This document shows positions 2,920 through 27,975 of a stretch of 64,000 nt of DNA, piece after piece; the stretch's first letter is position 1, and each line of letters begins with the position of its first letter. This stretch comes from Rhizobium sp. Q54 (GTDB lineage: Bacteria; Pseudomonadota; Alphaproteobacteria; Reyranellales; Reyranellaceae): assembly GCA_945903635.1 (NCBI GenBank), contig CAMDOT010000002.1, forward strand, positions 1 through 64,000, read 5' to 3'. The position numbers and the translations under genes are program-made. The notes below the pieces were generated by a model, which saw only the letters and a list, made by a program, of their open reading frames with translations, ran no database searches and was not told the origin of the DNA.

Positions 2920-3166
2920 ACGAATCTGGCCCAACTCGACACATAGATATTTGGCTCTCCGCACGCCGGAAAGCCAATAGCGACGGGCTTTTGCGCAGCT
3001 CATCGGGCACACCTGAAACGTCCGTGTGTTGTGCCCCAATGTGGGCCCGGATCTGTGCCCTGGCTTGCACGCGATTGCCTGTCCACGGTTCGAGGCGTGG
3101 CTCTTTTCCTGTTGGCGCCAGCACTGCCAGCACAAGACCCTTTGGGCGTAGATGGACTGCTCTCAC

Positions 3167-3186
3167 CCCTGGGTCAGGACCCAGGG
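3167..3186. other. Perfect inverted repeat inside element copy A
   Basis: Two 9-bp arms, CCCTGGGTC and GACCCAGGG, are separated by AG. The core GGGTC-AG-GACCC is also present in copy B at 27784-27795. The spacing from this core to the next conserved hairpin is nearly the same in both copies (57 and 58 bp). Confidence 0.8.
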
Positions 3187-3285
3187 CGGCTGCACCCGAG
3201 GCTCAGGGCCTGTCCCGCGGGCGTGCCGCGAGGGGTCGTGCCGGAATGGAAAAGGCCGGCGCAGTCCAGGCGCCAACCTATAGAA

Positions 3286-3315
3286 AATATAGGCATAAAC
3301 CTGCTGAACTTGCAA
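3286..3315 (-). promoter_or_regulatory. Predicted minus-strand sigma70-like promoter of element copy A
   Basis: On the minus strand, the -35 TTGCAA (3310-3315) is followed by an 18-bp spacer and the -10 TATATT (3286-3291). Copy B keeps the same arrangement. CCTATA and TATAGG arms flank the -10 in this copy only (3277-3293). Transcription would run leftward through the conserved hairpins. Confidence 0.6.
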
Positions 3316-3347
3316 CTTCCGTTCGCAGGAGCGAGCGCAGGCAGTGC

Positions 3348-11978: not shown

Positions 11979-12011
11979 AAAAGCCCCCGACCTGGAAAGT
12001 CGGGGGCTTTT
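11979..12011 (-). terminator. Intrinsic terminator in the metZ leader
   Basis: A 13-bp stem (AAAAGCCCCCGAC with GTCGGGGGCTTTT) closes a 7-nt loop and is followed on the minus strand by a T-tract. It lies between the SAM-II aptamer and the metZ start. It probably acts as the expression platform or attenuator; no competing antiterminator was worked out here. Confidence 0.85.
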
Positions 12012-12020
12012 GCGAGCACC

Positions 12021-12080
12021 TCCGACCTTTTAGCGATGTTTAACGTGGTCGCAAGCCGGTCGGCTCAAATCTCCACGGAC
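12021..12080 (-). ncRNA. SAM-II riboswitch (metA/metZ type)
   Basis: Read on the minus strand, the leader has P1 arms CGTGG (12077-12073) and CCACG (12048-12044). Between them lies a GATTTGAGCC...GGCTTGC segment. After P1 come GTTAAAC and GCTAAAAGG (12034-12026), which form the pseudoknot and SAM pocket in this class. The pattern matches the compact SAM-II pseudoknot known from alphaproteobacteria. It sits directly upstream of a terminator and metZ, as expected for feedback control by S-adenosylmethionine. Confidence 0.9.
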
Positions 12081-12084
12081 CCCC

Positions 12085-12113
12085 TCTATATAGGCGAAGC
12101 CCGCCTTCTGCAA
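12085..12113 (-). promoter_or_regulatory. Predicted metZ promoter
   Basis: On the minus strand, TTGCAG (12113-12108) is followed by a 17-bp spacer and TATAGA (12090-12085). The predicted start falls just before the SAM-II aptamer. The -35 region reaches to within 6 bp of the end of the neighbouring upstream gene. Confidence 0.6.
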
Positions 12114-27472: not shown

Positions 27473-27780
27473 GATCGCCTCAACCGATCCGGCTGGGCCC
27501 AACTTCGCGAAAAGGGCCCAAATCACGGTGTCGAACTAAGGCTCTCCAACCGCCGGAGTGCCAGCAAATCCAATCTTTTTGCGCGCCCGGCGGGCCCACC
27601 TGAACGCAGGGAGTGTTGGGCCCCGCGTTGGGCCCACACCTGTCCTCGATTCGCGCCGAGGATATTGTTTCGTTCCTTCGTTGCGGCCGTCGGTCGAGCG
27701 GGCCCGGCGCGCCGGTGGGCCGGCGACGTTGTTGCCTCCGCGACGGCCGTCGAGAAGGCGGGCTTGTTGTTTTGTCTGTC

Positions 27781-27798
27781 CATGGGTCAGGACCCACG
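27781..27798. other. Inverted repeat inside element copy B
   Basis: CATGGGTC-AG-GACCCACG forms an 8-bp stem with one mismatch around the AG spacer. The core GGGTCAGGACCC is identical to copy A (3171-3182). Read on the minus strand it is the second hairpin after the predicted promoter. Confidence 0.75.
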
Positions 27799-27909
27799 GC
27801 GGCGACCTTGCGTTCTGGGACGCGAACCCGCGAGCGGCGGCGGGCGGGTCTTTGCCGGAATGAAAAAGGCCGGCGTCCGCATTTACATGCCAAGCGCCAG
27901 CCTGACAGA

Positions 27910-27939
27910 AATATAGCACATATCCTGCTGAACCTGCAA
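27910..27939 (-). promoter_or_regulatory. Predicted minus-strand sigma70-like promoter of element copy B
   Basis: TTGCAG (27939-27934), an 18-bp spacer and TATATT (27915-27910) are found at the position equivalent to the copy A promoter. Spacer sequence GTTCAGCAGG is shared. Because the boxes are kept while much of the body has diverged, transcription of the element is a reasonable inference. Confidence 0.6.
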
Positions 27940-27975
27940 CTTTATGTTTGCGGGCATTTTGCTGGCACGATCGCG

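Follow-up and report, generated by a model that had tools for sequence, protein, structure and literature searches.

The window analysed here is a 64,000-nucleotide stretch of contig CAMDOT010000002.1 from Reyranella (Alphaproteobacteria), and it contains two noncoding elements of similar build (Table 1). As the initial annotation had stated, each occupies a gap where two genes converge: the first lies between the genes for Hsp33 (+) and a DUF2218 protein (-), and the second between those for Usp (+) and EamA (-). The two gaps, 2926-3330 and 27493-27957, can be aligned collinearly and in one orientation, and every landmark named in that annotation is present in the pairwise alignment. The local alignment score is 98, while the highest score of either element gap is 29 when 13 further gaps between genes of the window are taken on both strands, and 32 against shuffled sequence. 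The likeness is far above that with the other gaps. The core spans given earlier stand, with the right borders moved slightly further right, to about 3347 and 27975. The only Rfam match in the window is a SAM_alpha riboswitch on the minus strand at 12010-12086.

Two models were used for the matches in Table 1. R1, the core model, was built without the window copies and finds them at E = 6e-15 and 4e-7; the window copies were among the sequences from which R2, the model of the 3' part, was made, so that its matches to them are expected. A protein-coding body is ruled out by the gap lengths in the alignment, which are not multiples of three, so that there is no conserved reading frame, in line with the initial annotation.

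Table 1. Features of the two intergenic elements, in window positions
Feature	Position	Strand	Evidence
Whole element 1 (type A, subfamily w1), flanked by hsp33 and the DUF2218 gene	2926..3347	-	BLAST family, model matches
Element 1, R2 model match	2950-3070	-	E=4e-25
Element 1, terminal hairpin GGCTTTCCGGCGTGCGGAGAGCC, distal structured end	2953..2975	-	helix 11
Element 1, GGGCACA / TGTGCCC stem with conserved CACCTGAA loop	3005..3037	-	helix 10, compensatory changes
Element 1, R1 model match	3152-3196	-	E=4e-7
Element 1, covarying hairpin, CCTG loop on minus strand (GGGTCAGGACCC of the initial annotation)	3167..3186	-	helix 4
Element 1, promoter-proximal intrinsic terminator-like hairpin and T run	3250..3278	-	dG -17.1
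Element 1, conserved head ('tail' in window orientation)	3287..3318	-	69 genome copies vs 2 control; motif alignment
Element 1, head, -10-like CTATAT	3287-3292	-	conserved spacer GTTCAGCAGG between -35 and -10
Element 1, head, -35 TTGCAA	3310-3315	-	
Whole element 2 (type A, subfamily w2), flanked by the Usp and EamA genes	27493..27975	-	BLAST/model
Element 2, R2 model match	27537-27642	-	E=5e-18
Element 2, terminal hairpin	27540..27562	-	
Element 2, R1 model match	27697-27807	-	E=6e-15
Element 2, hairpin, CCTG loop on minus strand	27780..27799	-	covariation
Element 2, promoter-proximal terminator-like hairpin and T run	27863..27902	-	dG -25.1
Element 2, conserved promoter-like head	27911..27942	-	exact tail match 27924-27942

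Family size and structured body

The window genome (6.38 Mb, 384 contigs) holds at least 19 copies of what is called type A, the two in the window included, as counted from pattern and BLAST searches. Seventeen further copies could be aligned over all or nearly all of their length (L051 without its right end), and many partial matches exist besides. Across named genomes, a left-end pattern found 27 stretches, labelled as Reyranella or as unplaced alphaproteobacterial or Rhodospirillales MAGs. The head motif described below is present in 16 of 61 genomes of the genus, with 1-45 copies each and at most 1 for a control pattern, and all 16 belong to one Reyranella clade. Outside the genus, the family was found neither in 24 genomes nor in the 288 other genomes of a class search; such absences call for caution, since most of the genomes compared are MAGs in fragments. 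Collections of phages, plasmids and viral contigs gave no family match, and in Rfam 15 no element match exceeded the gathering score, the best sub-threshold scores being at chance level. As far as these collections show, the family is apparently undescribed so far, in agreement with the initial annotation.

The body behind the head is approximately 330 nt long and structured, with clear covariation. An alignment of 33 type A copies from several genomes (A3) contains 54 pairs in 11 helices, 97.2% of the cells being paired, and 14 pairs are changed on both sides. The number of double-change cells is 80, compared with 31 ± 3.6 in shuffled alignments and at most 15 with slid partners; this alignment is mainly one subfamily, and the RNAalifold consensus over mixed subfamilies is poor. 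The consensus energy is -225, versus -133 ± 6.6 for column-shuffled alignments. Three landmarks find their place in this structure, as GGGTCAGGACCC is one covarying hairpin, CACCTGAA a conserved loop and GGCTCTCC part of the terminal hairpin. Further copies and covarying stems, which had been proposed as the check on the element, are therefore both present.

Type A is one of several body classes that follow a common head. The others are type B (GGCACAACGAGGTGTGCC...ATGGTCCA) and the C and D types, and some copies are mosaics, L162 and L205 among them, in which a B body stands behind a leader of A type. At another locus (L053), a B body adjoins an A element. The initial annotation spoke of one element, whereas the family comprises several.

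The promoter-like head and the terminase units

A conserved right end of about 45 bp is common to all type A copies. Its pattern, CCTGCTGAACCTGCAAxTT, occurs 69 times in the genome, and the reversed control twice. The right-hand landmark CTGCTGAAC is part of this minus-strand promoter-like motif, with about 67 genomic copies, a point overlooked in the initial annotation. When 57 units are aligned on the minus strand, the head reads TTGCAG-GTTCAGCAGG-N4-5-GCTATAAT-like. The spacing is that of sigma70 promoters, with TTGCAG, 17 bp and a TATAAT-like sequence, and the spacer is unusually conserved; it is probably bound by a regulator. In addition, a stable hairpin with a run of four or more T behind it lies within 165 nt of the head in 57 of 73 units, compared with 37 of 219 shuffled sequences. 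The stems of these terminators are unrelated in sequence between body classes. Taken together, the head looks like a sigma70-type promoter followed by an intrinsic terminator, both on the minus strand. Some units, such as L044, L046, L050 and L297, have a dyad like GTGCTTGCACTGCCAGCA about 20-45 bp before the -35 box; it is possibly an operator or a separate repeat.

The promoter also bears on the strand of the structure. The G-U/A-C counts in shared pairs, 121 versus 97, fit either strand, and it is the promoter that argues for a minus-strand transcript, which is the probable one. The window repeats would then probably make RNA.

The same head is found in front of phage genes. In the window's genome, a 12-kb cluster starts with a head and continues with protease, GP7 capsid (E=6e-148), tail and internal virion genes. 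In the genome G032, one cluster has a head before terS-terL and another, farther along, before its capsid part; terS-terL-portal likewise stands behind a head. Directly behind the second head of a phage cluster in that genome (L295:15184-16066), a HigB/HigA-like pair was noted by eye; the HigB-like toxin gave no Pfam match. In the equivalent clusters of three non-clade Reyranella genomes the head motif is absent. The capsid cluster is present in 5 of the 16 head-bearing genomes (6 with G084, whose copy is non-clade-like), and one is disrupted.

The terminase genes are more widespread. Most clade genomes have several terL, with up to seven matches, some of them partial, while the non-clade genomes tested have 0-2. 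Many of these terL belong to stand-alone head-terS-terL units, in which the flanking genes are without similarity to the phage cluster. All 18 terL that were read (18/18) have open frames and keep the Walker and nuclease motifs, and dN/dS is 0.12-0.41 in the clade pairs tested. As judged from these intact motifs and ratios, the stand-alone terL is under purifying selection and is kept as a working protein.

A structured body lies 3' of terL in at least six units and is of A, C or D type. Type A ends were found by model search in L353 (E=5e-9), L366 (E=2e-5), L352 (E=9e-5) and L355 (E=3.5e-17), and by motif match a C-type end follows terL in L354 and a D-type end in L351. In several other terS-terL units, model and motif search recognised no structured end. 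Cargo lies in some of these units. In L355, the genes between terL and the structured end are for E1 (ThiF), JAB, a Panacea antitoxin and a peptidase of IrrE type, and Multi_ubiq is matched weakly there. An Xre-RES pair is found in L354 and a RelA/SpoT-like fragment in L351. The stretch L355:6046-10503 (G032) can be described as a ubiquitin-like defence operon with the Panacea antitoxin and an HTH/IrrE pair. The initial annotation was thus right about a structured repeat family, but the element is not isolated, as its head, and in several cases its structured end, recurs in the units of terminase genes; the earlier observation understates what is present.

Such an arrangement could arise if the elements belong to the regulon of a gene transfer agent in decay, with a single promoter in front of its scattered genes for capsid, terminase and accessory functions. 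The capsid cluster, terS-terL, endolysin-like genes and noncoding RNAs do stand at separate loci under one promoter class. A plain regulon of this kind was nevertheless downgraded and is very unlikely, because the capsid is missing from most promoter-bearing clade genomes, and up to seven terL matches per genome are unlike known gene transfer agents. The heads in common with phage late genes, the many promoter copies per genome and the defence and toxin-antitoxin cargo of several units have also been considered in terms of host defence. Here, the elements would be decoys or sensors: each copy would fire from its phage-type late promoter at takeover, and the RNA, or else titration of a phage factor or of TerS, would stop packaging or the expression of late genes. 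This is quite unlikely, as a selected, functional terL in stand-alone units is needless for a decoy, and no target or mechanism was found.

Occupied sites

The preference for convergent gaps extends to the family, with 31 of 56 units in such gaps compared with 24 of 147 background gaps. Behind noncoding bodies, the downstream gene is opposing in 42 of 45 cases; both counts rest on genes called with our own gene caller. In the outgroup species G036, G062 and G063, the gap 3' of hsp33 is only 5-41 bp and holds no element, while in clade members the same position is filled by A bodies of different subfamilies, by B or by other bodies. At another host gene end, too, the gap is short in the outgroup and the bodies differ within the clade. 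Old insertion with exchange of bodies, repeated insertion, or both would explain these sites, and their near-universal occupancy in the clade is as compatible with active mobility as with old insertions in which bodies were exchanged. In the window's own bin (G000), two hsp33 loci that are 87% identical lie on contigs C2 and C249 (L053), and 2.3 kb of contig C2 is 100% identical to G023, the bin of another species. Because of these two observations, the assembly may mix strains.

No terminal repeats or target-site duplications were noticed when copies, and filled and short sites, were compared. Neither the units that were read nor the comparison with outgroups showed an integrase or attachment site, and no transposase was identified in those units, as the initial annotation had noted for the element. 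These results bear on whether the elements are MITE-like DNA repeats, mobilised by a transposase encoded at another locus and with a structure that serves DNA transposition. The elements are short, noncoding, dispersed and hairpin-rich, outgroup sites lack them, and the G-U/A-C counts are compatible with structure on either strand. However, neither terminal inverted repeats nor target duplications were noticed in the copies compared, and the coding relatives carry terminase and not transposase, making this the least probable of the readings considered.

The occupation of the same host gene ends across the clade also suits a different view, which is that the elements are clade-specific regulatory RNAs with their own promoters, multiplied by duplication and acting in trans in the host, and that the phage genes acquired the same promoter. 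Strong covariation, the conserved promoter-terminator head and the absence of the capsid cluster from many clade genomes agree with this. For a host regulator, however, it is unusual that the body class turns over fast at one site, that structured bodies lie behind terL, and that dozens of diverged copies exist per genome, and so this origin is unlikely.

A proposed satellite-like family and its relation to known systems

The family is real and clade-restricted, it has a head in common with phage late genes and terminase units, and it has a structured body; all of this is well supported. That the window elements are derivatives without terminase and cargo is moderately supported. The heads, terS-terL, cargo and ends seen in the units point to a layout of a head, optional terS-terL, optional cargo and a structured end. 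A full unit would consist of the promoter-terminator head, terS and terL and a structured tail body, with cargo of anti-phage or toxin-antitoxin genes as an option, and the window copies would have retained head and tail alone. As the larger relatives carry terminase and sometimes anti-phage genes, the window repeats appear to be reduced relatives of phage-satellite-like islands.

The explanation that we favour, and hold to be rather probable, is that the window elements are small, non-autonomous members of a phage-derived, satellite-like family of one Reyranella clade, which would act in three steps. We infer late control of the antitermination type, recognition by or interference with terminase, and a mode of spread. 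The head promoter would be constitutive and yield a terminated leader of approximately 30-90 nt. A late-type, Q-like factor from a resident or infecting phage would then allow RNA polymerase to read through, so that the structured RNA of about 330 nt would appear only during phage activity. Because a convergent gene lies ahead, no neighbouring gene would be driven in sense by this readthrough. Finally, the structured end, as RNA or DNA, may be recognised by terminase or interfere with it, and as a consequence the elements would ride on phage packaging or parasitise it. Several points stand against this explanation: a classical Q gene (PF06530) was found in 0 of 61 genomes of the genus, most clade genomes have no capsid cluster, several terS-terL units show no recognised structured end, the G-U/A-C counts do not favour one strand clearly, the site occupancy suits old insertions equally well, and no integrase, transposase, terminal repeat or target duplication was seen that would account for spread to new sites. 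A bolder reading is possible but doubtful. This is a new class of mobile element, made up of small chromosomal units whose sole common enzyme is phage TerS/TerL, with a late-type promoter head, a structured end and dozens of terminase-less derivatives, in which the terminase would recognise the end as RNA or DNA and so drive packaging or even movement.

Known systems resemble parts of the family. bcr1 of Bacillus cereus is a dispersed, partly transcribed intergenic repeat with mobile-element features. The BRE of Bordetella are likewise dispersed intergenic repeats, partly transcribed and with such features (PMC3110155). Both are structured, as is the Reyranella family, which differs in its length of about 400 bp, its own predicted promoter and terminator, and its terminase-carrying relatives. 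GOLLD and ROOL are large structured RNAs of phages and prophages with unknown function, and GOLLD rises during phage lysis (PMC12286853). The elements share with them the candidate structured RNA and the phage link, but they lack an Rfam match and are smaller, chromosomal, multi-copy and tied to terminase units.

At lambda PR' leaders, Q overcomes a terminator from a binding site within the promoter (PMC6606751), and AlpA acts in a similar way (PMC9371919). The order of conserved DNA inside a promoter, an intrinsic terminator and then the controlled genes is the same in the heads, and a promoter with an embedded conserved site and a 3' intrinsic terminator is indeed present before late genes; unlike the lambda type, the heads occur without a PF06530 Q, and many lead to noncoding bodies. 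Phage satellites (P4-like, PICI, cfPICI) are similar in their phage-derived packaging genes, defence cargo and apparent tie to late functions. Packaging genes are present here as terS-terL in full units and absent from the window copies themselves. A phage satellite measures 7-20 kb and has an integrase and attL/attR (PMC13376191), whereas no integrase, attachment site, or gene for replication or capsid redirection is seen in the units read of the Reyranella family, which has many tiny copies per genome.

Should the favoured explanation be correct, repeats dispersed between genes can be remnants of islands that carry terminase, or parasites on them. It would also mean that an enzyme of phage packaging can be maintained as a selected, stand-alone chromosomal unit with defence cargo even where capsid and integrase are lacking. 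The elements would count as a further multi-copy family of RNAs, with late control of the phage type. In addition, they would offer a tractable system for asking whether terminase reads a structured RNA or DNA end, a question hitherto tied to the packaging RNA of phi29.
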